Source of the DNA: Acidimicrobiaceae bacterium
GTDB lineage: Bacteria; Actinomycetota; Acidimicrobiia; Acidimicrobiales; Aldehydirespiratoraceae
Length of the DNA stretch: 64,000 bases
Assembly: GCA_026706815.1 (NCBI GenBank)
Contig: JAPOYA010000059.1
Coordinates: 62,001-126,000, forward strand
Direction: 5' to 3'
Shown here: in pieces, positions 1 through 62,488 of the stretch
Numbering within the stretch: position 1 is the stretch's first letter
How the letters are laid out: each line of letters opens with the position of its first letter
Program-made: the position numbers and the translations under genes
The notes under the pieces: model-generated
Database searches by the model: none
The model's input: the letters and a program-made list of their open reading frames with translations, nothing else
What the model was told of the DNA's origin: nothing

Positions 1-10
1 CCCTCTGAGA

Positions 11-319: not shown

Positions 320-397
320 GTCTGAAGACTCTAGTCCAGTTCAAGATCAACGTGCAATGGAAAATAATGAAAGTTCGTTCCGGCACGCTGAGTCCGC

Positions 398-2185: not shown

Positions 2186-2225
2186 TCGCTGAACGAGGCA
2201 AGCGGAGGCAGGAGGGGCAGGGGGA

Positions 2226-6241: not shown

Positions 6242-6336
6242 AACCGGCAATCTCACAGCCGTCCCCCGCCTGCTCCCATGGTCGCCGTTGCGAGCCGTTG
6301 GAGGGGACGCACAGGTTGTCCTAGTGTTGTGCATCT

Positions 6337-6618
6337 ATGGACGAACCCGAAACTCAAGAGTTCGAGATCGAGGGCTCTTTCGAGTTGGCGGGCGGCGTCT
6401 GGGCCAACTTCGCCGCCGTCTCGCACTCTCCCCATGAATTCACCATCGATTTCATCCGCCTCGACTATCAGACACAGAACCCGACACGGGGCGTGGTGGT
6501 GCAACGCGTCAACATGTCGCCACTGCTCGTACAGCAGCTCATCGTCGCATTGACCGAGAACATGCAGAAGTACGCTGAGAGCATCCCGGACGGCCTGACC
6601 CTGGAAGGCGACGACTAG
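6337..6618 (+). CDS. DUF3467 family protein
   Basis: A 93-residue protein with the layout of DUF3467: an N-terminal strand-rich part (YVNF-like region replaced here by VWANFAAVSHSPHEFTIDFIRL) and a C-terminal amphipathic helix (SPLLVQQLIVALTENMQKYAES). The family has no settled biochemical role. It lies 95 bases after sbcC and 47 bases before the HSDR_N-type nuclease gene, both on the same strand, so it may belong to the same transcription unit. No catalytic motif is visible. Confidence 0.75.
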   Translation: MDEPETQEFEIEGSFELAGGVWANFAAVSHSPHEFTIDFIRLDYQTQNPTRGVVVQRVNMSPLLVQQLIVALTENMQKYAESIPDGLTLEGDD

Positions 6619-6665
6619 ACGACAGCGATTGCGCGCCTCCAATTTCAATGGTCTAGTGTCTCTTC

Positions 6666-7745
6666 ATGTCTCTGGAAGAGCACTTGGAGAGAATCAGGTC
6701 CAGAACAGTCCCTCCGAACGAGGAATCAGCCAAATTTCAGATAATCGCCCCGATATTGGAGAGCCTGGGCTGGTCGCCGAGTGACGGCTCGGAGTTTCTG
6801 CTGGAGTATCCGGTCGGTGGCAAGCGGGGCGGACGGGTCGATATCGCGCTGCGCTCCATTGCCCGCGGCCAAAGTCGATTGCTCGCGTTGATCGAAGCCA
6901 AAGCGCCAGGGTCCGACTTGTCCCAGCATGTCGGTCAGGTGCTCGGCTATGCATTCCACGAAGGCGTGGACGTCTGCGTGTTGACGACCGGGTTGGAGTG
7001 GCAGCTGTTTCTGCCACGCGAATCCGGCGAGCCGATGCAGCGCCGGTTTGCGGTGCTGGACCTGCTGAACGACCCGGCAGAGCAGGTTGCAGAGGACCTC
7101 CGTGCCTTTCTGACGAAGGAAGCGCTGACAAAGGGCCGGGCGGAGAAGAAGGCCAAGTCGGTCTTGAAGGCGCGCTTGGACGCAGATCGTCTGCAGAGTG
7201 AGATACCGAAGATCTGGGACCGGATGTTGCGCGGTCCGGACGAAGAACTAGTCGAGCTCGTTGGTTCACGCGTCTACGAAAAACTCAACCTCAGACCCCA
7301 CAGAGACCAGGTGATCGCTGCGCTCGGTGGGGGACCTGTTCCCATGGCTTTGGAGACTCCTGCACAACAGACTCCCGAAGTCAGCGGCCCCAAGCCCTCC
7401 AACGAAGGGAGACCATCACGCCGATCTAAGGTGCCGCCGACAAGCATCGTGCTTTGGGGTGTCCCATACCAAGTCGCCAGACACAAAGACGTCCTGTGCC
7501 AGGTTGTCGATTGCCTCTACGAAAGGCACGCAAACGACAATTTCGACCGGATCCTCGAACTCAGAGGACGACAGAAACCCTATGCGGCGCTGACTCCAGA
7601 CGGCATGCATGCACATCATCGGGTCAAGTCCTCGCGTTACTTCTTGGACGCACACGGCAGTGCCGCAGATCTTCGACGACGCGCTGAGCTGTTCCTTGCC
7701 ACATTCGGCTACGACAAGTCCGATCTTGAGGTGCTGTTCGAGTAG
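6666..7745 (+). CDS. Type I restriction HSDR_N-like PD-(D/E)xK nuclease
   Basis: The first 120 residues match the HsdR N-terminal nuclease fold: GGRVDIAL (Asp59), then LIEAK (Glu77, Lys79) and a conserved helix with QVLGYAFHEGVDVCVLTTGLEW. There is no helicase module, so this is a free-standing nuclease-type protein of 359 residues and not a full HsdR. After a linker with Pro/Ser-rich sequence (about 235-260), the C-terminal 100 residues (LWGVPYQVARHKDVLCQVVDCLYERH... through FLATFGYDKSDLEVLFE) resemble a domain that often follows HSDR_N in unclassified proteins. It is convergent with the DNA methyltransferase, with 6 bases between the stops. Substrate unknown; a defence or DNA repair role is inferred. 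Confidence 0.78.
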   Translation: MSLEEHLERIRSRTVPPNEESAKFQIIAPILESLGWSPSDGSEFLLEYPVGGKRGGRVDIALRSIARGQSRLLALIEAKAPGSDLSQHVGQVLGYAFHEGVDVCVLTTGLEWQLFLPRESGEPMQRRFAVLDLLNDPAEQVAEDLRAFLTKEALTKGRAEKKAKSVLKARLDADRLQSEIPKIWDRMLRGPDEELVELVGSRVYEKLNLRPHRDQVIAALGGGPVPMALETPAQQTPEVSGPKPSNEGRPSRRSKVPPTSIVLWGVPYQVARHKDVLCQVVDCLYERHANDNFDRILELRGRQKPYAALTPDGMHAHHRVKSSRYFLDAHGSAADLRRRAELFLATFGYDKSDLEVLFE

Positions 7746-7751
7746 TGTTGT

Positions 7752-8690
7752 TCACGGCCTGATGTCCGTGCGCTGGGGGACGTCGGTGCGTGTGGTGATG
7801 CAATCGTGATGAAACGAGCCTCCAATTTCAGCGTGCAGTCGTTCGTTGACGAGTTCCGCTGACTCGGAGGACAGGTCGATTCCGACCCATTGCCGGTTCA
7901 GTTTCTCTGCGGCGACGCAAGTAGTGGCACAGCCCGCGAACGGGTCCAGCACGACGTCGTTCTCGTTGCTGCTCGCGGTGATGATCCGCTCCAACAGCTT
8001 CAGCGGTTTCTGCGTCGGATAGCCGCAGCGCTCAGACCCGGTGGTTGAGATGATGCCGATATCGGTCCACCAGTCCTGGAGCATTTTGCCTTCGGGGTGA
8101 AAACCGGGTCTCCCTTCAACGTCGGGGGTGGCATAGGGCACACGAATCACGTTGTGGACGCAGTCGCGTTCCCGTCCATAGAGCAGCAGCACGTCGTGTT
8201 TGCGCGAAAAGTGTCTCTTGCTTGCACCACCCGACGAATAGCACCAGACGATCTCGTTTCGGAACTGCTCCCATCCGAACACGGCGTCCATCAGCTGCTT
8301 CAGATAGTGGCTCGCGGTGGGGTCGCAATGCAGATAAATGCTGCCGGTGAGTTTCAAAATGCGCTGCATTTCCAACAACCGCACCGCCATCATCGTCAAA
8401 TACGATTGCATCCCCGGAGAGTGGGCCGTCCCCGACCCAGAGAGCAGACAGGCGATGGCTGGATGTTCGTCGGCAATGTAACCGACCGACATGGCGTCGA
8501 GGTCGGCCGTTGTCCAAGTGTCTTTGAAGGCCGCTCCGGCAGCTTTGCTGTCGACCGGCGCGGAGTAGTTCCGATTCGAGTTGAACGGAGGGTCCAAGTA
8601 GATCAGATCAGCTGTCTCACTGTTGAGTCCGCGCAATATGTCGAGATTGTCGCCTGTCCAGATCGTTCGATTGGCGAAATTAGGTTCCAT
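7752..8690 (-). CDS. Site-specific DNA methyltransferase, beta class (N4-C or N6-A)
   Basis: SAM-dependent DNA amino-methyltransferase. The catalytic motif IV, DPPF within LIYLDPPFNSNRNY, precedes the SAM-binding motif I, LDPFAGCATT, near the C-terminus. This order defines the beta class used by many type II and III N4-cytosine or N6-adenine enzymes. I placed the start at the ATG giving MEPNFANRTIWTGDNLD, because the frame continues open far upstream but that extension is antisense to nurA and not methyltransferase-like. The product is 312 residues. It is divergent from nurA (87 bases between starts) and convergent with the HSDR_N nuclease. No dedicated type II restriction enzyme or specificity subunit is next to it. 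Whether it methylates N4-C or N6-A cannot be read from sequence. Confidence 0.88.
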   Translation of the reverse strand: MEPNFANRTIWTGDNLDILRGLNSETADLIYLDPPFNSNRNYSAPVDSKAAGAAFKDTWTTADLDAMSVGYIADEHPAIACLLSGSGTAHSPGMQSYLTMMAVRLLEMQRILKLTGSIYLHCDPTASHYLKQLMDAVFGWEQFRNEIVWCYSSGGASKRHFSRKHDVLLLYGRERDCVHNVIRVPYATPDVEGRPGFHPEGKMLQDWWTDIGIISTTGSERCGYPTQKPLKLLERIITASSNENDVVLDPFAGCATTCVAAEKLNRQWVGIDLSSESAELVNERLHAEIGGSFHHDCITTRTDVPQRTDIRP

Positions 8691-8777
8691 AGCGGTGATC
8701 ACGCGTTCAATCAGTATTTTGGACCACGCCAACCATAGTTTCAGAAGCGTTGGCGCCGCATCCAAGGAGCGCTCGTT

Positions 8778-9695
8778 GTGAAGTTCAGTGTGGAGACTTG
8801 GGCGCCTGAGTACGGGATCGGCTTTGATGCTCAGCAATTGGAGGAATCGACTGACACAGTCGATGTCGGCGTGGAGGTTGAGGCTGACGATTGGTCTCCT
8901 GTGACGCCCGCGGCGGTTGATCCGCCTGCTTGTGTTCTGTTCATCGACGGTGTCCGGCGAATCGACGTGCGGGTCTGGATCAGCGACGGCGAACTGGCCC
9001 GCGCGGGCGTGTGCGCGTCGGTGGCGGCGGGTGCGGTTCGGTGTACTCGAAGCGAAGCCCATGTGGTTGATGCTGCGGTGATGAGAGGGGTCTATGCGGC
9101 GCCGTCCGAGGCCGCGGGGCCGATCGTCACGGATCACGGAACATACGAGTTCGTTCCTTGCGCGAGCGATGCTCCCGACAGCGTCTACAACGGGATTCAT
9201 GAACAGATGACCCGCCTGGAGACCAGGTTCGGCAACGACGACGATGCCGACATGGTTGTCTTCGACGGTCCTTTGCGCGGCCGCATCAACCCCAAAGGCG
9301 TCGGCTACATCAAGACGCAGCATGTCCAGTATTTGCCGGAATCTGAGCAGCGGGTCTTGCAGTTGCTCGATGCAGGCCAGCGGACCCCGCTGTTCTTGAT
9401 CGGCGGAGCGGGGTTCACCCGCTGGTCGTGGTATCTGCGGTTGCCCGGTCCCGACACTCATCCACTGGCGGGCATTGTTCGCTGCGAGCTCCCCGGAGTC
9501 GGCAGCGCTGCTGAAGCCATTCGGCGGGCCGACCAAACCACCGCAACGCTGCCTCGTTTCGCCAGCGAACCCCACAAAGACTCTCGGGCGCCGCAAAACC
9601 TGTACCCGATAGCCGGGCTGGAAAACAAACTGCGGCACCGCCTCGGAGATCAGTCGAAGCTCGAACGTGCTCTGCGAATTGCCGCTGATGGCTGA
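8778..9695 (+). CDS. nurA: NurA-like 5'-3' nuclease
   Basis: Probable NurA nuclease, the partner of HerA in end resection. It shows an early catalytic-type Asp in VLFIDGVRR (Asp57) and a second acidic segment MVVFDGPLRGR (Asp163). A basic stretch follows, GVGYIKTQHVQYL (Lys180), which is followed in the family by a strand like TPLFLIGGAGFTRWSWYLRL. The C-terminal NLYPIAGLENKLRHRLGD also fits. The 305-residue length is normal. The start is GTG with AAGGAG nine bases upstream. It is separated from herA by sbcDC, a small gene and the nuclease/methyltransferase pair. A hairpin follows its end. The assignment rests on motif pattern, so moderate-high confidence. Confidence 0.75.
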   Translation: MKFSVETWAPEYGIGFDAQQLEESTDTVDVGVEVEADDWSPVTPAAVDPPACVLFIDGVRRIDVRVWISDGELARAGVCASVAAGAVRCTRSEAHVVDAAVMRGVYAAPSEAAGPIVTDHGTYEFVPCASDAPDSVYNGIHEQMTRLETRFGNDDDADMVVFDGPLRGRINPKGVGYIKTQHVQYLPESEQRVLQLLDAGQRTPLFLIGGAGFTRWSWYLRLPGPDTHPLAGIVRCELPGVGSAAEAIRRADQTTATLPRFASEPHKDSRAPQNLYPIAGLENKLRHRLGDQSKLERALRIAADG

Positions 9696-9729
9696 TCCCC
9701 GACCCCGCTTTTTGAAATCGTGAGTGGCT

Positions 9730-9747
9730 GTCGCCAAGAATGGCGAC
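9730..9747. terminator. Perfect hairpin after nurA
   Basis: A 7-bp perfect inverted repeat (GTCGCCA, loop AGAA, TGGCGAC) stands in the 150-base gap between nurA and the glycolate oxidase operon. There is no T-run after it on the plus strand, so it may be a weak terminator or an RNA processing/stability element and not a classical intrinsic terminator. Confidence 0.4.
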
Positions 9748-9846
9748 TGCTGGGATCAGATGACGGAGGCTCTGGCCGCGGTCTGAGTTTGTCCCGTTCC
9801 CGGCACTCTCAACGCCCAGCACGAACCCTGCTCGGCTACGGTGTGA

Positions 9847-11349
9847 GTGTGGTGTTCAGGCAAAGATCCTCGAATGAAGCTGCGTAGGAGAACTCGGGCC
9901 GACGGGGCCGGTCAACGTCACGATCCGTGTGTCGCTGAGCTGATCCGTGCGCTCGGCGCCGATCGGGTCCGTGCTGACAACGCGGCGCGACATCTCGCCA
10001 GCGCCGACGCTTCGATGTTCATCGACGGCGCCGCGGGGCCGGTGTGCTTCCCGGACTCCACCGAGCACGTGCAGGCGATCATGGGTGTCGCCGCCAGACA
10101 CGACCGGGCGGTTCTTCCCCGAGGCGCCGGGACCGGACTGAGCGGCGGGGCCGCCCCGCTCGGCGATCCCATCGTCGTCTCCACAACGCGCATGAACCGG
10201 GTTCTCGAGGTCGATGTCGAGGATCGCGTCGCCTGGGTGCAGCCAGGCGTGGTCAACCTTGACCTGACCAAGCAGGTGGCGTCTTCGGGTCTGCACTTCG
10301 CGCCGGACCCCTCATCGCAACAGGTGTGCACGATCGGCGGCAACGTCGCCAATAATTCCGGTGGACCCCACTGTCTTGCCTACGGCGTCACCAGTGCACA
10401 TGTACTGGCTGTGGAGGTCGTGTTGTCGAGCGGCGAAGCGGTCGTGCTCGGAGGGCTCGAAGCCGAGCCTTCGGGATACGACCTGCGGGGTGCCTTCGTC
10501 GGCTCGGAGGGAATGTTCGGCGTCACCACAAAGATCGCGGTGCGTTTGACTCCAGACCCTGAGAGCGTAAAAACGCTGTTGCTGGCGTTCGACGCCGTGT
10601 CTGATGCGGCCGCCACCGTGGGTGCGGTGATCGCCTCAGGGTCGGTGCCCGCGGCGATCGAGATGATGGACAAGCGCTGTGTCGCCGCTGTCGAGGATTT
10701 CGCGCATGCCGGTTACCCCCGCGATGCCGCAGCGGTGCTGTTGATCGAGGTTGACGGTCCGCGACGGGGCGTCGAGGCGGAGACCGACAAGGTCGCCGAG
10801 ATCGGCCGCGCGCATGGTGGGACCGTGCGGGTGGCGGCTGACGAACAAGAGCGGGCACTGCTCTGGAAGGGACGAAAGAGTGCGTTCGGGGCAGTCGCGC
10901 GGGTTGCGCCCGACTACTACCTCCACGACACCGTGGTACCTCGTTCCAAGCTCGTCGAAGTGCTGGAGGCTGTTTATGAGATCGTCGATCGTTACGATCT
11001 CACCGCGGTCAACGTCTTCCACGCGGGAGACGGCAACCTGCATCCGCTGATGGCCTATGACTCACGCGAACCGGGCGTCAACGAGCGTGTCGCCGCAGCG
11101 GGGCGAGAAATCCTCGAAGTCTCGTTGGCGGTGGGCGGTGTCCTGTCCGGCGAGCATGGCATCGGCGTCGAAAAGCGAGATTTCATGGAGTACCAGTTCA
11201 CCAGCGCGGACCTTGAGCAACAGGCGCTCCTGCGGCGTTCGTTCGATCCGCACTGCCGCTTGAACCCGGGCAAGGTTCTTCCGTCGGCCCACAGCTGCGC
11301 AGACATCGCGTCGTTGTCGGCATTCAAAGCCGACGGAGTGTGGGGATGA
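9847..11349 (+). CDS. glcD: Glycolate oxidase FAD-binding subunit GlcD
   Basis: FAD-linked dehydrogenase oxidising glycolate or a related 2-hydroxyacid to the keto acid. The PCMH-type FAD domain has AVLPRGAGTGLSGGA near residues 90-105 and GGNVANNSGGPHCLAYG near 160-176. The C-terminal substrate/FAD domain contains FHAGDGNLHP and LSGEHGIGVEK. The first possible start is GTG at the given position; an ATG nine codons later (9874) is equally good. The stop overlaps glcE by ATGA, so it is the first gene of a glcDEF operon. Lactate or another hydroxyacid is a possible alternative substrate. Confidence 0.9.
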   Translation: MWCSGKDPRMKLRRRTRADGAGQRHDPCVAELIRALGADRVRADNAARHLASADASMFIDGAAGPVCFPDSTEHVQAIMGVAARHDRAVLPRGAGTGLSGGAAPLGDPIVVSTTRMNRVLEVDVEDRVAWVQPGVVNLDLTKQVASSGLHFAPDPSSQQVCTIGGNVANNSGGPHCLAYGVTSAHVLAVEVVLSSGEAVVLGGLEAEPSGYDLRGAFVGSEGMFGVTTKIAVRLTPDPESVKTLLLAFDAVSDAAATVGAVIASGSVPAAIEMMDKRCVAAVEDFAHAGYPRDAAAVLLIEVDGPRRGVEAETDKVAEIGRAHGGTVRVAADEQERALLWKGRKSAFGAVARVAPDYYLHDTVVPRSKLVEVLEAVYEIVDRYDLTAVNVFHAGDGNLHPLMAYDSREPGVNERVAAAGREILEVSLAVGGVLSGEHGIGVEKRDFMEYQFTSADLEQQALLRRSFDPHCRLNPGKVLPSAHSCADIASLSAFKADGVWG

Positions 11350-12284
11350 TCGCCCCGCCGGTGATTGAAGACGCCGAACTGCTGGCTTTCGCTGCTGAGG
11401 TCGGGCCCAGCGGTCCAGTCGCGGTCCGTGGTGGAGGCACCCAGTGGCATGTGGGCGGAGCCCCCGACCACGGCGTGCGGGAAGTGCGGGCACCGTCTGG
11501 CATCGTGGAGTACCGGCCCGATGAGATGACCGTCTGCGTGCGCGCGGGCACCACAGTCGCCGAACTCCACGCTGTCCTCGCCGAACACGGTCAGCGCACC
11601 GCTCTGCCCGATGGATCTGGGCCGTTCGGTTCGCGTTCTTCGACAGTCGGCGGAGCGATCGCGGTCGGACGGTCGCCGGTCACAAGGCTGGGGAACGGCC
11701 ACATCCGCGACGCGGTCCTGCAGTTGCGCTACGCGGCCGCCGACGGTCGACTCGTGACCGCGGGCGGGCCCACAGTCAAGAACGTGACCGGTTTCGACAT
11801 GTGCCGCGTTCTGGTCGGTTCGTTGGGCACGTTGGGGTGCATCGGCGATGCGATCCTGCGCACCCGCCCCAAGCCCGAACACGAGCAATGGGTGCAACTC
11901 GAAGACGCCGAACCGCAGACCGTTCTCAGAACCGCGAGAACGGCAACAGCCATCTTGTGGGACGGATCGGTGGTGTGGGCCCGACTCTGCGGACACCATG
12001 TCGATGTTGAAGACGATCTCGCCCGACTGCCCGCATCGTCGGCGGCTCAACCGCCGGATTTGCCGCCGTACCGCTGGTCTCGCCGCCCCAAGGATCTGTA
12101 CTGCCTCCCGGAAGAGACAGGACGTTTCATCGCCGAGGTCGGCGTTGGCGTCGTCCATTGCGAACGCCCCGACCCCGACCCGCCACCGGTCGCACCCGGT
12201 GTGGCGGCCCTCAATCGTCGAGTGCGCGAACTGTTCGACCCCGATCGTCGTTTCAACCCCGGTCGATCCGTGGAGCGGCTATGA
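11346..12284 (+). CDS. glcE: Glycolate oxidase subunit GlcE (FAD-binding)
   Basis: Second, smaller FAD-binding subunit of the glycolate oxidase complex. It has the typical half-length PCMH fold: AVRGGGTQWHVGG near the N-terminus, VCVRAGTTVAELHAVLAEHGQ, STVGGAIAVGRS and the GPTVKNVTGFDMCRVLVGSLGTLG segment that is characteristic of GlcE. The ATG start overlaps the glcD stop (ATGA), and its own stop overlaps the glcF start the same way. Translational coupling of all three subunits follows from these overlaps. About 312 residues. Confidence 0.88.
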   Translation: MIAPPVIEDAELLAFAAEVGPSGPVAVRGGGTQWHVGGAPDHGVREVRAPSGIVEYRPDEMTVCVRAGTTVAELHAVLAEHGQRTALPDGSGPFGSRSSTVGGAIAVGRSPVTRLGNGHIRDAVLQLRYAAADGRLVTAGGPTVKNVTGFDMCRVLVGSLGTLGCIGDAILRTRPKPEHEQWVQLEDAEPQTVLRTARTATAILWDGSVVWARLCGHHVDVEDDLARLPASSAAQPPDLPPYRWSRRPKDLYCLPEETGRFIAEVGVGVVHCERPDPDPPPVAPGVAALNRRVRELFDPDRRFNPGRSVERL

Positions 12285-13459
12285 GCGAATCTCTTGGACT
12301 TCTGGGGCTTGAGCAGGCTGAACGCGATAGTTGCGTGGCGTGCGGACTCTGCCTTCCCCATTGCCCGACATATCGGGTGACCGGTGCCGACACCCACTCG
12401 CCGCGGGGGCGCATAGCCCTCATGCAGGTTGTGGATGAAGGCATCGCTCCGCTGACAGAGGAGATCGTCGAAGCTTTCGACTCGTGTATTCAATGCCGAG
12501 CCTGTGAGACCGCCTGTCCCGGTGATGTGCCTTTCGGACACCTGATGGAGTCCACCAAAGAGGTCGTCGAGTCGACCCGCGGCAGGGCTCCGTGGTGGCT
12601 GAAGCTGGGTTTGCGGGCTCTGACCCGTCCAACTTTGCTGCGAATTGGTTCAAGTTGCCTCGCGGTTGCACAACGTCTGCGGCTCGTTCCGTCGCGGCGC
12701 CTCGGCCTCCCGGACCGACTGCCGCTACGCCGCCGGGCGTTGCGAGCAACGGGTGACGACGTGTGGCTGTTCACTGGGTGCGTCATGGACGCTTGGCAAC
12801 GCGACATTCACCTAGCGACCCAAGAGGTGGTCGAGGCGACCGGCACGACAGTGCGTCCGACCGGTGACGCGGCGCCTTGCTGTGGGGCGCTGCACACCCA
12901 CGCCGGACTCGGCGACGGCGCCCGCAAGCTGGCCGCCCGAGTGATGTCAGCGCTTGACGGCGACAACGCTGTTCTCGTGAACTCCGCCGGTTGCGGAGCT
13001 GCTTTGAAGGACTACGGCCGGCTGCTCGGCAGCGACGAAGCCCGGGCCTTCTCAGCACGGGTGTTCGACATTCACGAATGGCTGGCCGACCATATTGATG
13101 AGATGGACGCGAATCCTCTGGAGCCGGCGATCGCTGTGCGGGTGGCAATCCAGGATCCCTGTCATCTCCGCCATGTACAGGGGTCGCACATGGCTGTTCG
13201 CGAGGTCCTCGAACCGTTCGTCTCAGAGATTGTGGAACTCGATGATGAGGGGATGTGCTGCGGTGCCGGTGGAGCGTTTTCGCTGGTCAACCCACAGTTG
13301 GCGCTTGATGTTCGCGACCGCAAGACCGAAGCGATCAGCCGATCGCGTGCTGACGTTGTGGTGAGCGCCAATCCCGGATGTTCAATGCACCTTGCCGCCG
13401 CAGGCGTGACAGTCCGCCACCCGATGGAGTTGATCGCCGAGGCACTGCGGGCACGCTAG
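12281..13459 (+). CDS. glcF: Glycolate oxidase iron-sulfur subunit GlcF
   Basis: Electron-transfer subunit of glycolate oxidase. Two 4Fe-4S ferredoxin motifs are visible, CVACGLCLPHCPTY and CIQCRACETACPGD. Two CCG (cysteine-rich) domains follow, with APCCGALHTHAG and GMCCGAGGAFSL, as in heterodisulfide-reductase-like subunits. I chose the ATG that overlaps the glcE stop (392 residues); the longer open frame upstream would read through glcE. It is last in the operon and convergent with the MFS gene 50 bases on. Confidence 0.9.
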   Translation: MSESLGLLGLEQAERDSCVACGLCLPHCPTYRVTGADTHSPRGRIALMQVVDEGIAPLTEEIVEAFDSCIQCRACETACPGDVPFGHLMESTKEVVESTRGRAPWWLKLGLRALTRPTLLRIGSSCLAVAQRLRLVPSRRLGLPDRLPLRRRALRATGDDVWLFTGCVMDAWQRDIHLATQEVVEATGTTVRPTGDAAPCCGALHTHAGLGDGARKLAARVMSALDGDNAVLVNSAGCGAALKDYGRLLGSDEARAFSARVFDIHEWLADHIDEMDANPLEPAIAVRVAIQDPCHLRHVQGSHMAVREVLEPFVSEIVELDDEGMCCGAGGAFSLVNPQLALDVRDRKTEAISRSRADVVVSANPGCSMHLAAAGVTVRHPMELIAEALRAR

Positions 13460-54912: not shown

Positions 54913-54940
54913 ACAGCCGCTCCAGTTTGCGTGCCAAAGG

Positions 54941-55276
54941 TTAGCGTATTTGACGCGCTAGTCGGATTAGCGTGTCAAATATGCTGGTCGTGCCACCCAT
55001 CACGCTCCTGGGGCATCTATCAATCGGATGAGCTTCATCGTTTGTCGCGTTCTTTCGGGACCGCGACCCAAAGACCTGGCTCCGATCCACGACGACCTCG
55101 CCCTCGGGCGGCTCGAAGGGTTCATGGCTCCAACCCATCAAGTCGTCGGTGCTCAACCACGGGTTCTCCAGCACGACAGACGCAGCGGCGCGTATGCGCT
55201 CCTTTAACTTGTCGATTTGCGTGGCCAGAGCAGCTTGCCGCTCAATCCGGTCGTTCAGGGATTTCCGTAGGCTCAT
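54941..55276 (-). CDS. Hypothetical protein with N-terminal coiled coil
   Basis: 111 residues from the internal ATG (MSLRKSLNDRIERQAALATQIDKLKERIRAAASVVLEN...). The N-terminal 35 residues look helical/coiled-coil. The C-terminal part is acidic and ends inside a strong inverted repeat (54944-54984). No function recognised. The longer frame upstream gives an Arg-rich extension that I left out. Confidence 0.4.
   Translation of the reverse strand: MSLRKSLNDRIERQAALATQIDKLKERIRAAASVVLENPWLSTDDLMGWSHEPFEPPEGEVVVDRSQVFGSRSRKNATNDEAHPIDRCPRSVMGGTTSIFDTLIRLARQIR
54944..54984. repeat. 17-bp inverted repeat, 7-base loop
   Basis: GCGTATTTGACGCGCTA faces TAGCGTGTCAAATATGC; the only two non-Watson-Crick positions are G-T. 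It covers the end of the hypothetical coiled-coil gene. It could be a bidirectional terminator without T-run, an end of a lost mobile element or a protein-binding palindrome. Confidence 0.7.
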
Positions 55277-55372: not shown

Positions 55373-55846
55373 TCAGACCGGGTTGTGGGCCGTTTGGCTA
55401 GCGAGAACCAGTTGATGCTGACGTGGCGCGCGCGGGACTGTCTTGAGCTGCCACCCGAGCTCGTCGAGGAGCCGATCCGCTTTCTTCAGGTTGTGGTCTG
55501 CGCACATCAACACCACGTTCGTCCACGAGTGGTCCCCGCTACGCGAACGCGGCACGACGTGATCTATGGTCGTTCCGCGTTCGCGGCACGACACCACTTG
55601 GCACTCGCCGTTGTCTCGAACCTTCAGGGTCTTTCGGTTCAGCGGAACACGCGCCGCGAACGGAATCCGGACCATGTACCGCAGACGCAGAACTACCGGA
55701 ACCGGAAACGTGTGCGACGGTGACCGCATCTCGGTCGACCCGGCTTCGAGAAGGTCGGCTTTGCCGGCAAGGATCAGTCCCAGGGCGCGGCGCGTTGAGA
55801 TGATGTGTAGCGGCTCATACGAAGCGTTGAGCAGCAATACCGACAT
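55373..55846 (-). CDS. HNH endonuclease
   Basis: 157 residues of the small actinobacterial HNH type. The zinc-associated CQVVSCRERGTTIDHVVPRSRSGDHSWTNVVLMCADHNLKKADR contains CxxxxC, DHVVPRSRSG and the NxxxxxxDHNxxK core. The N-terminal MSVLLLNASYEPLHIISTRRALGLILAGKADLLEAG is the typical opening, which decides the start over the earlier ATG in the tRNA. Such genes are common, chromosomal and of unclear target. Confidence 0.88.
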   Translation of the reverse strand: MSVLLLNASYEPLHIISTRRALGLILAGKADLLEAGSTEMRSPSHTFPVPVVLRLRYMVRIPFAARVPLNRKTLKVRDNGECQVVSCRERGTTIDHVVPRSRSGDHSWTNVVLMCADHNLKKADRLLDELGWQLKTVPRAPRQHQLVLASQTAHNPV

Positions 55847-55888
55847 CGCGGTTGTCTCCTGTCTGGTTGTTGGCGAATCGAAAGTTAG

Positions 55889-55962
55889 TGAGTCGGGAGG
55901 GACTCTAACCCTCAACAAACGGATTAAAAGTCCGCTGCTCTACCATGTTGAGCTACCGACTC
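55889..55962 (-). tRNA. tRNA-Lys (TTT)
   Basis: Acceptor GAGTCGG/CCGACTC fully paired, anticodon loop CTTTTAA. No encoded CCA. Start of the tRNA-rich region. Confidence 0.9.
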
Positions 55963-56037
55963 GTGGAAACCACCCGAACGAACAGTGGAGCTCTGGTCGG
56001 TCAACGCGTGAACAGCGACGCGACCGTTAAGCGATAG

Positions 56038-56110
56038 CGCCCCTGGCAGGACTCGAACCTGCTGCCTCTCGGTTAGAAGCCGAGCGCTCTTCCAGATGAG
56101 CTACAAGGGC
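56038..56110 (-). tRNA. tRNA-Arg (TCT)
   Basis: Acceptor GCCCTTG/CAGGGGC (one G-U), anticodon stem CTCGG/CCGAG with loop CTTCTAA. Its 5' 42 bases (anticodon arm to the 5' end) recur perfectly at 57003-57044. The full gene stands on the low-coordinate side of the HepT/MntA pair. Confidence 0.94.
56069..56110. repeat. 42-bp direct repeat, copy 1 (5' half of tRNA-Arg)
   Basis: Identical over 42 bases to 57003-57044, in the same orientation, and it flanks the toxin-antitoxin pair. It begins in the anticodon arm and ends exactly at the tRNA 5' end, as an integration attachment site would. Confidence 0.9.
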
Positions 56111-56164
56111 AACGAGATAGAGCCTGCGTTGGATTGATCGTGTTGACCAACGCGGCGTTGCCGC

Positions 56165-56659
56165 CTATCGACGGCGTAAGTGGCCTGCAGCGCATCTCCC
56201 GCCGAACGGCGGGGCAGGATGCGAGCAACGCCTACCCGTTTTGGTTCTGGCGGCACAGATTCCTCTTGGAGCGGCAGGACCAATTACTTGAGCAGCGGAG
56301 CCCGATTCTCGTCTCGTTTCTAAGCCATGTTCTTCGGTCAGTTTGGTTACTGCTGATTGCAAGGAAGGGATGTCCTTCGTAATCGTGTTCCACACGATGC
56401 CTTGATCTGTTCGCCAGTATTCGTGAAGCAGCCTGTTGCGGAGAGACACCGCGTCGCGAATTGGCAACCCAGTGTGACTGGCGAGGAACTCATCCGACAA
56501 AGAGTTGAGCGCTTCACCGACTATCGACAGGTTGAGAATCGCGGCATCGCGCAGCACCCACTTCTTATCGTATGTGCGCCGACCTTTCGATGCGATCTCT
56601 GCGAGCTTGTGGCAGCATTCTTTGATGTCTTGGATTCGTTCGGTGTCGCTTCTGCTCAC
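56165..56659 (-). CDS. hepT: HepT-like RNase toxin (DUF86) with Cys/His tail
   Basis: Toxin of the HepT-MntA system. The RX4HXY active motif is RNRLLHEY at residues 74-81, within helices starting DIKECCHKLAEIASKGRRTYDKKWVLRDAAILNLSIVGEALNSLS. The canonical fold ends near residue 112. A tail of some 50 residues follows, with Cys135, Cys145, Cys156 and His160 (CAARTKTGRRCSHP...GGRCAAGH), a pattern like a zinc knuckle and unusual in HepT. The start overlaps the MntA stop by ATGA. AMPylation of HepT by MntA is the known silencing mechanism in this family. Confidence 0.85.
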   Translation of the reverse strand: MSRSDTERIQDIKECCHKLAEIASKGRRTYDKKWVLRDAAILNLSIVGEALNSLSDEFLASHTGLPIRDAVSLRNRLLHEYWRTDQGIVWNTITKDIPSLQSAVTKLTEEHGLETRRESGSAAQVIGPAAPRGICAARTKTGRRCSHPAPPFGGRCAAGHLRRR

Positions 56660-56949
56660 AACAGAACGGCATCGCGTGCCATGGTCGCCTTATAACTGTC
56701 CCGCACACATGTCGTCGGGATGACATCAACATCACACCCCAACATGTCTTGGAGGTCGGCTTCGAGTCGACCGATCCCGAACAAGGTGATGTCCTTCTTG
56801 AACTCGACTAGGAAATCTAGGTCGCTGTCGGCGGTATCTTCACCACGGGCAGTGGAACCCACGAGCGCTACAGAGAGCGCCTTTTCGCGTTTCGCAGCAG
56901 CGACTATCGCTTCACGGTGCTTCACCAGCACATCATTCCGTCGGCTCAT
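56656..56949 (-). CDS. mntA: MntA-like nucleotidyltransferase antitoxin
   Basis: Minimal nucleotidyltransferase with GSX10DXD: GSTARGEDTADSDLD at residues 31-45 (Gly31-Ser32, Asp43, Asp45). The rest fits the family: VALVGSTARGED, FLVEFKKDITLFGIGRLEADLQDMLGCDVDVI. About 97 residues with ATG start. It neutralises HepT by adding AMP to the Tyr of RX4HXY, as established for related pairs. It reads directly into hepT with a 4-base overlap. Both lie inside the 42-bp repeats. Confidence 0.88.
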   Translation of the reverse strand: MSRRNDVLVKHREAIVAAAKREKALSVALVGSTARGEDTADSDLDFLVEFKKDITLFGIGRLEADLQDMLGCDVDVIPTTCVRDSYKATMARDAVLL

Positions 56950-57002
56950 GGCTCTAGGATAGCGAACCTGGTTCAACGCAGCCAGAGAAGCGTGAACCGT
57001 GT

Positions 57003-57044
57003 TCGGTTAGAAGCCGAGCGCTCTTCCAGATGAGCTACAAGGGC
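57003..57044. repeat. 42-bp direct repeat, copy 2 (tRNA-Arg 5' half fragment)
   Basis: Perfect copy of the 5' half of the tRNA-Arg gene without its 3' half; no T arm or acceptor completion follows on the minus strand, so it cannot fold as a full tRNA. It marks the other end of the HepT/MntA cassette. Confidence 0.9.
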
Positions 57045-57146: not shown

Positions 57147-57848
57147 ATGAAGACGGTCACCGTGACCGGGAAGTCCCTCATCGGGCCTCGCTCTGAGAAC
57201 CAGGACCGTGAACTCGTCCGGCTTGACTCCGGAACTGGTCTGTGGCTGGCGGCTGTCGCTGACGGCTTGGGGGGACATGTGCGCGGCGCTGAAGCTGCTC
57301 AGGCGGCGGTGGATCAGATACCTGACACCCTGCCCGCACCCGAGGACATGTCGGCTGCGTTCAACGCTGCCCACGAAGCCGTGCGTCTGTTGAGCGGAGA
57401 GCCTCCCCGTCTCCGCCCAAACTGGAGGCAGGTCCCGATGTCGACGCTGTGTATTGCTACAGGGGGTTCAGACGGCGGAGAGATCGTCGTCGGGCACTCC
57501 GGCGACACTATGGCCTACACGCTGCGGATCGTCGACGGCGAAATCAGGGGCGGGCAAGTCGGAGATACACACAACTATCCCGGCGGTGCTGTCTCTCATT
57601 GTCTCGGTTTCGATGGACAACACGCAGTCCAGCGGGTTGCCTCTAGCGAAGCCGACGCAATCGCCGTTCTGAGCGACGGGGCATGGGCACCGCTGATGCG
57701 CACGCGAACCGCCGAGTGTCATTTCGCGTTTGCCTACAGCGGCGCATGGTCAGCGGAAGCAGTGTGCGAGTCGCTTCTCGCGGCGGCGGAGCAGGTCGGC
57801 TTGGTGGACAACGCCACGGCTGCCGTCGTCTGCTGGGACCAGTCGTGA
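57147..57848 (+). CDS. PP2C-type protein phosphatase
   Basis: PPM-family metal-dependent Ser/Thr phosphatase, 233 residues. It opens with GKSLIGPRSENQDRELVRL and has the metal-binding Asp motifs in LAAVADGLGGHVRGAEAAQAA. It continues with VVGHSGDTMAYTLRI and ends with AIAVLSDGAWAP and NATAAVVCW. No membrane segment or sensor domain. The start has ggagaagccgac ahead. It overlaps the ASCH protein by GTGA, so the pair is co-translated. It sits between the tRNA-Arg island and the tRNA array. Confidence 0.87.
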   Translation: MKTVTVTGKSLIGPRSENQDRELVRLDSGTGLWLAAVADGLGGHVRGAEAAQAAVDQIPDTLPAPEDMSAAFNAAHEAVRLLSGEPPRLRPNWRQVPMSTLCIATGGSDGGEIVVGHSGDTMAYTLRIVDGEIRGGQVGDTHNYPGGAVSHCLGFDGQHAVQRVASSEADAIAVLSDGAWAPLMRTRTAECHFAFAYSGAWSAEAVCESLLAAAEQVGLVDNATAAVVCWDQS

Positions 57849-58330: not shown

Positions 58331-58334
58331 GTGG

Positions 58335-58420
58335 TGCGGGAGGGGGGAGTCGAACCCCCACGGGCCTTTCGGCCCACCAGGCCCTCAGCCTGGCGCGTCT
58401 ACCAGCTTCGCCACTCCCGC
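58335..58420 (-). tRNA. tRNA-Leu (GAG)
   Basis: Long variable arm; acceptor GCGGGAG/CTCCCGC, anticodon loop CTGAGGG. Discriminator A followed by encoded CCA. Last of the array in transcription order. Confidence 0.93.
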
Positions 58421-58469
58421 GCTGAGTGTCGGCCCTCACATCACCGCTCACGGTCACGCGACGGTTGCG

Positions 58470-58543
58470 TAGCGACACCAAGACTCGAACCTGGGGCCAA
58501 CGCGTTATGAGCGCGCCGCTCTAACCAACTGAGCTATGTCGCT
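58470..58543 (-). tRNA. tRNA-Met or Ile2 (CAT)
   Basis: Acceptor AGCGACA/TGTCGCT, anticodon loop CTCATAA. No CCA. Elongator Met is likely, but a lysidine-modified Ile2 with CAT cannot be excluded. Confidence 0.88.
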
Positions 58544-58547
58544 GTGG

Positions 58548-58633
58548 TACGGGGAGTGAGAGTCGAACTCACACGGGCCTCTCGGCCCACCAGGTCCTGA
58601 ACCTGGCGCGTCTACCTGCTCCGCCACCCCCGC
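58548..58633 (-). tRNA. tRNA-Leu (CAG)
   Basis: Long variable arm; anticodon stem CCAGG/CCTGG with loop TTCAGGA. Acceptor has two G-U pairs. CCA is encoded. Confidence 0.93.
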
Positions 58634-58658
58634 TCGTTCGCCCGAAATACGAGCGCTG

Positions 58659-58731
58659 TGGCCCGAGGCGGAATCGAACCGCCGACCTCTCGCTTTTCAG
58701 ACGAGCGCTCTTCCAACTGAGCTACCGAACC
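58659..58731 (-). tRNA. tRNA-Phe (GAA)
   Basis: Acceptor GGTTCGG/TCGGGCC (three G-U pairs), anticodon loop CTGAAAA. No CCA. Confidence 0.92.
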
Positions 58732-58735
58732 GTTG

Positions 58736-58809
58736 AGCCGGAGACGGGATTTGAACCCGTGAATCACTGCTTTGCAGGCAGTCCCCTTAGTCCACTCGGG
58801 CACCCCGGC
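58736..58809 (-). tRNA. tRNA-Cys (GCA)
   Basis: Anticodon stem ACTGC/GCAGT with loop CTGCAAA; acceptor GCCGGGG/CTCCGGC. Discriminator U, the tRNA-Cys identity base. No CCA. Confidence 0.93.
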
Positions 58810-58814
58810 GTTGG

Positions 58815-58901
58815 CGGAAAGGGCGGGATTTGAACCCACGGACGCTCACACGTCGCCGCCTTAGCAGGGCGGTGCCATAAACCTGACTCGGCCACCTTTC
58901 C
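58815..58901 (-). tRNA. tRNA-Ser (GCT)
   Basis: Long variable arm; anticodon stem CCGCC/GGCGG with loop CTGCTAA, acceptor GGAAAGG/CCTTTCC. CCA is encoded. Confidence 0.93.
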
Positions 58902-58904
58902 ATG

Positions 58905-58978
58905 TAGGCACGAGTGGAGTTGAACCACCGGCCTCTCCCTTATCAGGGGAGCGCTCTGACCAACTGAGCTACGTGCCT
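58905..58978 (-). tRNA. tRNA-Ile (GAT)
   Basis: Acceptor AGGCACG/CGTGCCT, anticodon stem CTCCC/GGGAG with loop CTGATAA. No CCA. Confidence 0.93.
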
Positions 58979-58986
58979 TCGTGTTG

Positions 58987-59062
58987 CGCCCCCAACCGGA
59001 TTTGAACCGGCGACCTCCGCCTTGACAGGGCGGCGCTCTGGACCTGGCTGAGCTATGAGGGC
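58987..59062 (-). tRNA. tRNA-Asp (GTC)
   Basis: Anticodon loop CTGTCAA on stem CCGCC/GGCGG; acceptor GCCCTCA/TGGGGGC (one G-U). A slightly long D loop. No CCA. Confidence 0.92.
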
Positions 59063-59076
59063 AGGCTTGTTCTTGG

Positions 59077-59149
59077 TACCCCCAACGGGATTCAAACCCG
59101 TGTTTCCGGCGTGAAAGGCCAGCGTCTTTGTTCGCTAAACGATGGGGGT
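59077..59149 (-). tRNA. tRNA-Glu (TTC)
   Basis: Acceptor ACCCCCA/TGGGGGT; anticodon loop CTTTCAC. CCA is encoded. Confidence 0.9.
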
Positions 59150-59230
59150 GAGGATCGTGTGGCTTCGGCTGTGATCCCATGAAGCCTTCTGGAAGCTCAA
59201 CATTCCGTCCCACAACTAGACGGACGATGG

Positions 59231-59315
59231 AGGAAACGGCGGGATTTGAACCAGCGGACCCGTGAAGGTCTCCTGGTTTCGAGACAGGTGCATTAGTCCG
59301 CTCCGCCGCGTTTCC
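59231..59315 (-). tRNA. tRNA-Ser (CGA)
   Basis: Long variable arm; acceptor GGAAACG/CGTTTCC; anticodon loop CTCGAAA with a T-C mismatch closing the anticodon stem. Discriminator T, then CCA. Both deviations are unusual for Ser. Confidence 0.85.
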
Positions 59316-59320
59316 ACTAG

Positions 59321-59393
59321 CACTCCAGGCGGGAGTCGAACCCGCTACCTCCTGGCTGAGAACCAGGCGTCCAACCCGGTAGACCGCTGGGGC
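59321..59393 (-). tRNA. tRNA-Glu (CTC), second copy, divergent
   Basis: Anticodon loop TTCTCAG on stem CCTGG/CCAGG. Acceptor GCCCCAG/CTGGAGT contains a C-A mismatch at position 3. It differs clearly from the housekeeping tRNA-Glu(CTC) at 50743. No CCA. Confidence 0.78.
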
Positions 59394-59398
59394 GTGCG

Positions 59399-59471
59399 TG
59401 CGTCTCCTGGGGATCGAACCCAGAGCCTTCGGATTAAGAGTCCGCTGCTCTTCCAGTTGAGCTAGAGACGC
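59399..59471 (-). tRNA. tRNA-Lys (CTT)
   Basis: Acceptor GCGTCTC/GAGACGC; anticodon loop CTCTTAA; one mismatch at the far end of the anticodon stem. No CCA. Confidence 0.88.
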
Positions 59472-59572
59472 ATGTTGAGAGCCTGCCAAGAGGCGCTGTT
59501 GCTCAGGTCGGCGATGCGGCTGAGGCTGCTGAGCGTTCAAGTTCCTTGAGGATTTTCTTGAAGAGCTTTTGG

Positions 59573-59645
59573 CAGGGAAGGCGAGGGTCGAACTCGCGGC
59601 CTCCTGGTCCAGAGCCAGGCGCTCTACCAACTGAGCTACTTCCCA
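59573..59645 (-). tRNA. tRNA-Gln (CTG), second copy
   Basis: Anticodon loop CTCTGGA on stem CCTGG/CCAGG. Acceptor TGGGAAG/CTTCCCT has a T-T mismatch at 1-72. CCA is encoded. Duplicates the isoacceptor at 50596. Confidence 0.87.
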
Positions 59646-59655
59646 TTGTTACTGG

Positions 59656-59729
59656 TCGGGGTGACTGGATTTGAACCAGCGGCCCCCTGCTCCCAAAGCA
59701 GGTGCTCTTCCAAGCTGAGCTACACCCCG
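59656..59729 (-). tRNA. tRNA-Pro (TGG), array copy
   Basis: Acceptor CGGGGTG/CACCCCG; anticodon loop TTTGGGA. CCA is encoded. Its 3' half is nearly identical to the tRNA-Pro at 62415-62488. Confidence 0.93.
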
Positions 59730-59738
59730 CGGTGATGG

Positions 59739-59812
59739 CTGGGAAGGTGGGCCTCGAACCCACGGCCTCTCGGTTAACAGCCGAGCGCTCTGCCGAACTG
59801 AGCTACTTCCCA
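59739..59812 (-). tRNA. tRNA-Asn (GTT)
   Basis: Acceptor TGGGAAG/CTTCCCA; anticodon stem CTCGG/CCGAG with loop CTGTTAA. CCA is encoded. Confidence 0.93.
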
Positions 59813-59816
59813 TTGG

Positions 59817-59890
59817 TCGGGCTGGGCGGACTTGAACCGTCGACCTCCTCGTCCCGAACGAGGCGCGCTGCCAAACTGCGCCACAACCCG
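59817..59890 (-). tRNA. tRNA-Pro (CGG)
   Basis: Acceptor CGGGTTG/CAGCCCG (one G-U); anticodon stem CCTCG/CGAGG with loop TTCGGGA. CCA is encoded. Confidence 0.93.
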
Positions 59891-59895
59891 TAGCA

Positions 59896-60022
59896 CGGAG
59901 CACCCGCAAAAGACCGAGGACTTCAACCTCGCTCGACTTAGCTTCGTGCGGGAACCCCACGGAGCGCCGGCGAGAACATCGACGACGCTTGAATCCTGAG
60001 ATCCAGTCTCTGTGGTGCTCCG
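59896..60022 (-). ncRNA. Possible structured RNA inside the tRNA array
   Basis: Where a further tRNA would be expected there is instead a region closed by a 9-bp stem (59896-59904 with 60014-60022). It contains a 5-bp stem with a 7-base loop TTGAAGT (anticodon-arm-like, CGAGG/CCTCG) and flanking arms CCGCA/TGCGG, but no T arm. A second GCTCCGTG copy could compete for the outer strand. It may be a degenerate tRNA, a tRNA-like RNA, or chance. Confidence 0.3.
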
Positions 60023-60096
60023 CGTCTGCCGCTGATCGTGCGATCAGGACTAGTCGCGGCGGATCGTGACCGAAGCGCCGGCTTCGGGTATTGGCG

Positions 60097-60169
60097 TGCC
60101 CAAGAGAGGCATCGAACCCCTAACCTCCTGTTTACAAGACAGGCGCTCTGCCTGTTGAGCTACTCGGGC
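60097..60169 (-). tRNA. tRNA-Thr (TGT)
   Basis: Acceptor GCCCGAG/CTTGGGC (one G-U); anticodon stem CCTGT/ACAGG with loop CTTGTAA. No CCA. Confidence 0.93.
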
Positions 60170-60178
60170 GAGTGCGTG

Positions 60179-60251
60179 TGCCGGTGAGAGGAATCGAACC
60201 CCTGGCCCTCTCGTTACGAATGAGACGCTCTGCCAACTGAGCTACACCGGC
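60179..60251 (-). tRNA. tRNA-Thr (CGT)
   Basis: Acceptor GCCGGTG/CACCGGC; anticodon loop TTCGTAA with an A-C mismatch next to it. No CCA. First of the array in transcription order; the 220 bases upstream hold no gene and should contain the promoter. Confidence 0.9.
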
Positions 60252-60474: not shown

Positions 60475-61749
60475 TCATAGCCGCGATCTGTGTCCGCCTT
60501 TGTGTCCGCGGCTGAGGACGCACTTAGCTTTGGCTCTCGGCATGAACTGCCCGCAACGCGCGCCTAGGGCTTGCGGAGTGGGAGCGGCGGCATCGGGGAG
60601 TGCGTAGTCCAACACTCTTTGGGTCTCTTTATTCGCGACTTCAGCGGGAACAAGACCGGAGAGAAGCACCCTGTTGCCCACCCTCTCGACGTACTGGGAA
60701 AGCTCCAAGCGCCGCTCGCTTTCAGCAAGCCGACGAGCTCGCAAGTTGGTTCGACGAGCGATCTCGGCGGCTTCCGCCGAACCGCCGAGAGCGGCAACCG
60801 TTCCGAGATAAACTTGGTCTTGTTCGCTCAACGAATACCACGCGGGTAGGTGAATGTTGTCGATCATCAGCCGATCCGCTTCGTTGATGGCTTCTTCAAC
60901 CATCCATGTCTCAATGGTGCGCCGCGTGCCTGCGATGTTCCAACATGCGTGTCCCGTGGCTTGAAGTCGATACGGAGACTCGCCCACAGATTCGGCTGCG
61001 AGCCGCAAAGCTCCACGGTCGATGTCGCCGCCGAACTCCGAGATGGGTCGCTCTAAGCCGCTTAGGGCATCCGTGACGGTCAACGGCGGTACGCGGAGGC
61101 GGTGACAGCGCTGAAGGAACGTGATCTTCTTGTCCTCAAGCAAGGTGTACTGAAGCTCGGGTAAACCGGCCCCCACGAACCCCAGCGGCAGATGGTCCAA
61201 CTTCACGATGTCCTGAAGGTCACGGGCCAGTTCTCTGGCCTGTTCTCGGTCCACGCCTTGAAGCTCATCAACGGTCAACAACACGGACGTGCCGTTCCGC
61301 TGAGCGCTATCTGCCAACTCCCGCAACTGGCGGCCAACAGATTTCGCAGGCTGGTCTCCGCGAGTCCAACTCAGGCCAACCCCGGCGAATCGAAACGCCG
61401 TAATACGTGAGTCTTGTTCTGCTGCTTCCTCAATCGACTCGTACTTTGCTTTCGCCGCTTCAATAGACTCAACGATCTGGTCTCCGAGATTGCCGCTGCT
61501 TCCACTGACCGAAAGGGCTATCCACCCATCTTTCTCTGCGGCATCTCGGACATGCTTCAACAGCACCGTCTTCCCTGATCCGCGGACGCCCAGCAACAAT
61601 GTTGTGAACTCGCGGTTGCCTGGACCGGATGCCAACCCCTGAAACAGAGCAGAAAGCAGCGTTTCGCGGCCCACCAACGCGGGCGGCGACTCCCCGAAGT
61701 CCGGCGAGAACGGGTTGCGCTCAACGATGTCCGTTAGTCCCACTCCCAC
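60475..61749 (-). CDS. AAA+ ATPase with C-terminal Cys/His tail
   Basis: 424 residues. The N-terminus NPFSPDFGESPPALVGRETLL precedes Walker A GVRGSGKT (about residues 54-61). Walker B is VLLTVDELQGV and sensor-1 LGFVGAGLP. A helical lid and probable winged-helix part follow (RLAAESVGESPYRLQATGHACWNI; YSLSEQDQVYLGTVAALGG; LSQYVERVGNRVLLSGLVP). The last 25 residues carry RCGQFMPRAKAKCVLSRGHKGGH, a C-C-H-H pattern. It belongs to the widespread actinobacterial Orc/STAND-like ATPases of unknown job. It is preceded by 20-bp tandem repeats, suggesting self-regulation or a replication-type role. GTG/ATG start at the NPF-proximal Met. Confidence 0.82.
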   Translation of the reverse strand: MGVGLTDIVERNPFSPDFGESPPALVGRETLLSALFQGLASGPGNREFTTLLLGVRGSGKTVLLKHVRDAAEKDGWIALSVSGSSGNLGDQIVESIEAAKAKYESIEEAAEQDSRITAFRFAGVGLSWTRGDQPAKSVGRQLRELADSAQRNGTSVLLTVDELQGVDREQARELARDLQDIVKLDHLPLGFVGAGLPELQYTLLEDKKITFLQRCHRLRVPPLTVTDALSGLERPISEFGGDIDRGALRLAAESVGESPYRLQATGHACWNIAGTRRTIETWMVEEAINEADRLMIDNIHLPAWYSLSEQDQVYLGTVAALGGSAEAAEIARRTNLRARRLAESERRLELSQYVERVGNRVLLSGLVPAEVANKETQRVLDYALPDAAAPTPQALGARCGQFMPRAKAKCVLSRGHKGGHRSRL

Positions 61750-62223: not shown

Positions 62224-62414
62224 TGCCGCCGATTTCGTGCAGGTGGCCGACGTAGGCCAAATAGAGCGGATATGCCTGCACGCGTTCCCGACCGTCAACG
62301 ACCCGATGCTTGACCTGCCCGCAAAGCACTGCGTCGATTTCTGACCGGCACGGGCGCTCACTGCGGTCACGCTGGTTGCCGCGGGCGGGTGCCCGCAGCG
62401 TGATGGCGGAGTTG

Positions 62415-62488
62415 TCGGGACGACTGGATTTGAACCAGCGACCCCCTGCTCCCAAAGCAGGTGCGCTACCGAGCTGCGCCACGTCCCG
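62415..62488 (-). tRNA. tRNA-Pro (TGG), second copy
   Basis: Acceptor CGGGACG/CGTCCCG; anticodon loop TTTGGGA. No CCA, unlike the array copy. Probably the resident gene. Confidence 0.93.

Follow-up and report, generated by a model that had tools for sequence, protein, structure and literature searches.

The HepT/MntA cassette and its repeats

The window, the 64-kb stretch of DNA analysed here, is part of a 137-kb contig in a 3.04-Mb genome of 65 contigs (G000). It carries on the minus strand hepT (56165..56659), which encodes a predicted HEPN-type RNase toxin of 164 residues (PF01934, E 4.7e-20), and mntA (56656..56949), which encodes a predicted minimal nucleotidyltransferase antitoxin of 97 residues counted from its ATG (PF01909, E 8e-11). 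The two genes overlap by 4 bases, and the ATG at 56949 is most likely the MntA start rather than the TTG at 56976. The RX4HXY motif of HepT (RNRLLHEY) and the GSX10DXD motif of MntA (GSTARGEDTADSDLD) are both intact, and these are the signature motifs of working HEPN/MNT pairs (PMC7641770). As in a type VII toxin-antitoxin system, a PF01934 HEPN protein with RX4HXY thus lies next to a PF01909 MNT protein with GSX10DXD.

On the hepT side the pair borders an intact accessory tRNA-Arg(TCT) gene (56037..56110, minus strand; found by ARAGORN and scoring 67.5 bits with RF00005). The 5' half of this gene, nt 1-42 (56069..56110, minus strand), recurs on the same strand at 57003..57044, 53 bp upstream of the MntA start codon. 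The two copies are 42/42 identical, share the same orientation and lie 934 bp apart from start to start, so the perfect 42-bp repeats of the original prediction, reaching from the anticodon arm to the tRNA 5' end, are confirmed. One edge of the repeat is exactly the mature tRNA 5' end (nt 1) and the other falls in the 3' strand of the anticodon stem; outside the repeat the flanks of the two copies show zero similarity on either side. The second copy is not a chance match, since its E-value in a whole-genome search is 1.7e-15. An Rfam scan gave a 21.5-bit tRNA-like match at 56950-57044, which reflects the orphan half only, and besides tRNAs nothing notable. We take copy 1 as a putative attachment-site junction with the restored tRNA and copy 2 as the putatively displaced 5' half.

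The cassette body between the repeats (56111..57002, 892 bp) has a G+C content of 0.559, compared with 0.60-0.64 in the adjoining island genes. It holds no plausible gene besides hepT and mntA, and the non-coding stretch at either end measures only some 53-54 bp. A scan for sigma-70 promoters around the cassette found none. The unit also lacks an integrase, as had been claimed, and the entire 137-kb contig is without a Phage_integrase match; six such matches exist in G000, all on other contigs and none linked to the tRNA-Arg site.

The surrounding tRNA-array island

The tRNA-Arg gene is itself part of an island of about 8 kb (approximately 54.3-62.4 kb of the window) with about 20 tRNA genes, which lies at the 3' end of the core, genus-conserved tRNA-Pro(TGG) (62414..62488, minus strand). 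The original prediction had taken a different context for granted; the bracketed pair it described stands, within this larger array. The region is flanked on the left by leu genes, gltX and tRNA-Gln/Glu and on the right, on the other side of tRNA-Pro, by msrB- and recA-like genes (names read from the translations). Within the island, an accessory tRNA-Lys(TTT) gene (55888..55962, minus strand), a fragment of which occurs in G003:C30, lies downstream of tRNA-Arg, together with an HNH endonuclease gene (ORF as listed 55373..55918, minus strand, conserved part from about 55848; PF13395/PF01844). Beyond the cassette follow a gene for a PP2C-type phosphatase (57147..57848, plus strand; PF13672), the main array of 18 tRNA genes (58332..60251, minus strand) and a gene for an AAA ATPase (60475..61749, minus strand; PF13191), for which 93% identical DNA is present in G001:C51. 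A palindromic sequence at 54916-54988 (TTTGACGCGCTA...TTAGCGTGTCAAA) is also found in G003 and G027 and is apparently a dispersed repeat.

Five species of the same genus have the adjoining genes and tRNA-Pro(TGG) and lack the tRNA array, and RF00005 matches number 65 in G000 against 43-45 in these five relatives. The array is dense in accessory tRNA genes that duplicate members of the core set, as in described tRNA array units, and comparison of its DNA with plasmids and phages gave only similarity of tRNA gene to tRNA gene. The redundancy extends to the target: a core tRNA-Arg(TCT) is present elsewhere in the genome (G000:C20), and the gene at 56037-56110 is therefore a spare copy, survival being independent of its restoration. 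The claim that integration restored the tRNA, which has the geometry of an integrated element in its favour, hence carries less weight than had been assumed.

One HEPN toxin, from a cyanobacterium, trims the 3' ends of tRNAs. For HEPN toxins of the HepT class, action on tRNA or mRNA has been reported (PMC11586414). The position of a putative tRNA-cleaving toxin within a spare tRNA array is suggestive of a possible functional link.

Search for an empty site and for relatives of the cassette

No empty tRNA-Arg site was found among 397 genomes of the order, and besides G000 only G003 has any part of the array tRNA-Arg. There, a 3' piece of the gene, from nt 15 to the end with the first 14 nt missing, lies behind der (G003:C15:26064-26161); in other members of the genus der is followed directly by the next gene, without the tRNA-Arg piece. 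The same genome holds the 5' part of the array tRNA-Lys beside a hipBA-like pair (G003:C30:73993-74079). Both fragments are lone pieces at unrelated loci, and G003 has neither array nor island. These fragments show a past visit of the array, or of pieces of it, to G003; they do not reveal the pre-insertion state. No relative carrying both repeat copies without the toxin-antitoxin pair was found.

An exact match to the 42-mer (to 41 of its bases in the scan of viral contigs) was absent from the viral contigs and species genomes searched, and we found no second copy of the window cassette; other cassettes using the same 42 bp, which the original prediction had proposed to look for, thus did not turn up in these collections. 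Nor were relatives of HepT or of the PP2C protein confirmed in the genome contigs and viral contigs. A frame-broken HepT/MntA remnant at 980-1455 of one locus (L028, G002:C64) shares 72% DNA identity with the window mntA.

Bracketing repeats at other HepT loci

We surveyed 80 further HepT loci from 198 genomes of the order for exact direct repeats that bracket HepT, with a minimum length of 22 bp and a separation of no more than 2.2 kb. Such repeats were present at 8 of the 80 loci against 2.4 expected when HepT was slid through its own locus (P about 0.0004). Without two loci that resemble gene duplication or fragments the figures are 6 and 1.9 (P 0.004), and leaving out the tandem array as well gives 5 and 1.6 (P 0.01). 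An earlier control drawn mostly from two genomes (1/950) overstated the enrichment and was replaced by the within-locus estimate; a wider random control gave 68/3000, or about 1% once loci with copies of real cassettes were removed. The enrichment is therefore real but modest, roughly threefold, and the majority of HepT loci are without bracketing repeats. The individual loci outweigh the count as evidence. In several unrelated cases the units are compact (695-982 bp), and the repeats are mostly 3' ends of genes, unlike the 5' half in the window. At three loci (L117, L138 and L251) hepT ends within or right at the repeat.

G000 itself has a second HepT/MntA pair (L117, G000:C45:64500-69216, positions 3536-4350), flanked by 54-bp copies of the 3' end of sufB (53/54 identical) in a unit of 761 bp, with the hepT stop codon inside the repeat. 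In all five relatives (5/5) sufB ends once, without a cassette; the DNA past the second repeat is non-syntenic, so this is an imperfect empty site. Two further repeats end exactly at a stop codon, namely the 3' end of an ABC ATPase gene in G092 (45/47) and that of a methyltransferase-subunit-like gene in G120 (26/27).

Tandem arrangements were found in two genomes. In G096 (L132, G096:C8:177000-185300, positions 2314-8291) the tRNA-Arg(ACG) locus holds three elements in tandem, each without an integrase, which are marked by three copies of the tRNA 3' half, from the anticodon loop outward. The element ends share the motif TGATGCACGNNNGGATGCA, which occurs three times in that genome, always at this locus, and is absent from G000; these motifs are possibly integrase arm sites. 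In G162 a 12.5-kb contig (L157, G162:C126, positions 1-12471) holds three VapBC modules, one Phd-ParE and one HepT/MntA in mixed orientation, and repeats of 119-235 bp that contain a tRNA-Gly-like 3' half, so named from its sequence, recur across several module junctions. The last three modules (VapBC, Phd-ParE and HepT/MntA) are separated by copies of 119-148 bp. The contig carries no intact tRNA and no integrase match.

Outside the order we checked 12 plasmid HepT loci, three of which have bracketing repeats, one very clear and two doubtful. The clear case is a plasmid of Picosynechococcus sp. PCC 8807 (L251, NZ_CP016487.1, positions 1900-3400), where VapBC and HepT/MntA cassettes lie in tandem between hsdM and hsdS. 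A copy of about 66 bp of the hsdM 3' end, reaching to the stop codon, follows each cassette, and the VapC and HepT stop codons fall inside these repeats; in PCC 7003 (L257) the pair lies directly between hsdM and hsdS. Of the doubtful plasmid loci, L246 has a repeat with a palindrome beside parAB that may be a partition site, and at L254 the repeat is present two times on the same side, next to a transposase gene where the record ends. Among the loci of the order, L147 was rejected as an att case, its repeats being tandem gene copies, and L162 is doubtful, since its repeat lies inside a coding sequence and possibly stems from gene duplication or fragments. At L176 the HepT/MntA pair is preceded by a diverged upstream copy of tRNA-Met that is truncated in the T arm (73% identity over 170 bp, upstream DNA included).

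The description of the window unit as a satellite-like toxin-antitoxin cassette is thus supported in part, by its geometry, by the lack of an integrase and by similar cassettes bracketed by gene ends in the same genome and elsewhere; an empty tRNA-Arg site was not found among the genomes searched.

A model for the origin of the cassette

We propose that a minimal cassette, consisting of the HepT/MntA pair and one copy of the tRNA-Arg 5' half and probably circular, would have recombined with the anticodon loop of an accessory tRNA-Arg in the tRNA-array island. The cassette-borne 5' half would have rebuilt the tRNA beside hepT, and the original 5' half would have been displaced to its place upstream of mntA. 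Since no recombinase gene is present in the cassette, the enzyme, presumably a tyrosine integrase encoded elsewhere, would have acted in trans or have since been lost. The toxin-antitoxin genes, for a predicted RNase and a nucleotidyltransferase that would modify it, may then keep the cassette from loss. We give an even chance to this reading of the unit as a minimal, integrase-less, CIME-like element inserted at the anticodon loop by a recombinase from elsewhere; helper-driven mobility of the cassette is unproven. The presence of an end fragment of a tRNA in the same orientation as the intact gene, with the 5' fragment upstream, argues for insertion, as do a repeat that runs from the anticodon stem to tRNA nt 1, as expected of an element-borne gene end, the G+C content of the cassette, below that of its surroundings, and the recurrence and enrichment of bracketed HepT loci. 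Against it stand the failure to find an empty tRNA-Arg site, a second copy of the cassette or an integrase linked to the site, and a 5'-half target where most recurrent cases have 3' ends. Moreover, some 54 bp of non-coding DNA per end leaves little room for arm-type integrase sites, unlike the situation in G096 and G162, and the placement of the hepT end in or at the repeat at three loci is no specific prediction of a recombinase.

The main rival, and a live one, is a partial duplication, in which rearrangement of the array produced a second copy of the tRNA-Arg gene, or of a piece of the array, and the toxin-antitoxin pair entered between the copies, truncating the upstream one at nt 42, with no site-specific recombination. 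tRNA arrays rearrange readily, and the two lone array fragments in G003, at unrelated loci and without an island, are consistent with such events. The tRNA-Met copy at L176 likewise resembles an old tandem duplication, and the repeats of L147 and possibly L162 stem from gene duplication or fragments. However, spacer DNA is normally included in a tandem duplication, and here homology beyond the 42 bp is zero and the repeat starts exactly at tRNA nt 1; furthermore, the sufB, ABC ATPase and hsdM cases are not tRNA duplications. We therefore regard partial duplication as possible but doubtful.

Capture during repair would also account for repeats, if a staggered or replication-associated break took up a toxin-antitoxin fragment, fill-in or homologous exchange on one side copied 20-90 bp of the target, and the survivors were those that kept the target gene intact. 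The repeat lengths do range widely (27-88 bp), some repeats lie inside genes (L162), hepT stop codons fall inside the repeat at several loci, and units of down to 695 bp have no room for integrase sites. We nevertheless consider this origin unlikely, since exact gene ends in three repeats (tRNA nt 1 and two stop codons) would be rare under random duplication and the element ends of G096 and G162, with their shared sequences, speak for a recombinase. A still smaller probability attaches to the unit being what is left of a full-size island that entered tRNA-Arg with its own integrase, an internal deletion having spared only the toxin-antitoxin pair between the attachment sites. CIMEs have indeed been regarded as ICEs or IMEs that have decayed and retain attL and attR (PMC5704250), but the window unit is a clean two genes with about 54 bp at each end, and because several unrelated units are equally clean (695-982 bp), independent deletions would all need identical stop points.

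Relation to known elements

The window unit has features in common with several known systems. It resembles the tDNA islands of the Islander survey (PMC4383910) in its intact tRNA, its displaced end fragment with the expected orientation, side and configuration, and its anticodon-centred crossover region, and differs in being 934 bp (0.93 kb) rather than 2-200 kb long, in lacking an integrase and in its 5' fragment. The 5'-half target is indeed unusual, as had been pointed out: 159 of the 3919 islands in that survey are of this type. Candidates that measure less than 2 kb or have no integrase are discarded by Islander (PMC4383910), and cassettes like the window unit would therefore have been removed. 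More generally, short integrase-free cassettes would be missed by island finders that demand an integrase and at least 2 kb (PMC4383910).

Like a CIME (PMC5704250), the unit keeps attL/attR-like repeats at both ends and is without integration and transfer genes, and the tandem arrangements in G096 and G162 are accretion-like. It combines CIME-like geometry with a far smaller size, a content of toxin-antitoxin genes only and an uncommon 5'-half target; no related autonomous element with the same site was found. The tRNA-dependent lysogeny of actinobacteriophages (PMC10865867) also involves recombination near the anticodon loop and tRNA genes on mobile DNA, but there the core is very short (about 10 bp) and no tRNA is reconstituted, whereas the window repeat is 42 bp and the tRNA is intact. 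The island itself shares a dense accessory array and an HNH endonuclease gene with the tRNA array units described from mycobacteria and from their plasmids and phages (PMC5966550, PMC12803027), and differs in being chromosomal, between tRNA-Pro/recA and core genes, with a toxin-antitoxin pair inside.

By the account of one survey, MNT-HEPN pairs are among the commonest toxin-antitoxin modules and jump as just the two genes from one close relative to another; recent insertions of the pair alone are noted there (PMC2701414). That account describes neither repeats nor a mechanism and gives no vehicle, in contrast to the repeats found here, and gene-end repeats flanking the pair would offer a concrete, testable route for the movement. 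The recurring gene-end brackets hint at how toxin-antitoxin genes move without a recombinase of their own. Tentatively, and with less confidence than for the window unit, we suggest that bare toxin-antitoxin operons of 0.7-1 kb may be widespread non-autonomous elements, each with a copy of a gene end (either half of a tRNA gene or the 3' end of a protein-coding gene), which would land there through a recombinase acting in trans and pile up in tandem. If true, such a class would account for the mobility that has long been noted for MNT-HEPN and for other modules of two genes.

With respect to its gene products, the predicted toxin-antitoxin pair agrees with HEPN/MNT type VII systems (PMC7641770, PMC11586414) in Pfam families, gene order and both motifs. 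It differs in that its HepT has an extra Cys/His-rich C-terminal tail (e.g. CAARTKTGRRCSHPAPPFGGRCAAGH), encoded by the 3' part of hepT (56165-56340). Tails of similar style are seen in the AAA ATPase of the island (60475-60600) and in a HipA of G003 (L026, 12330-12422).
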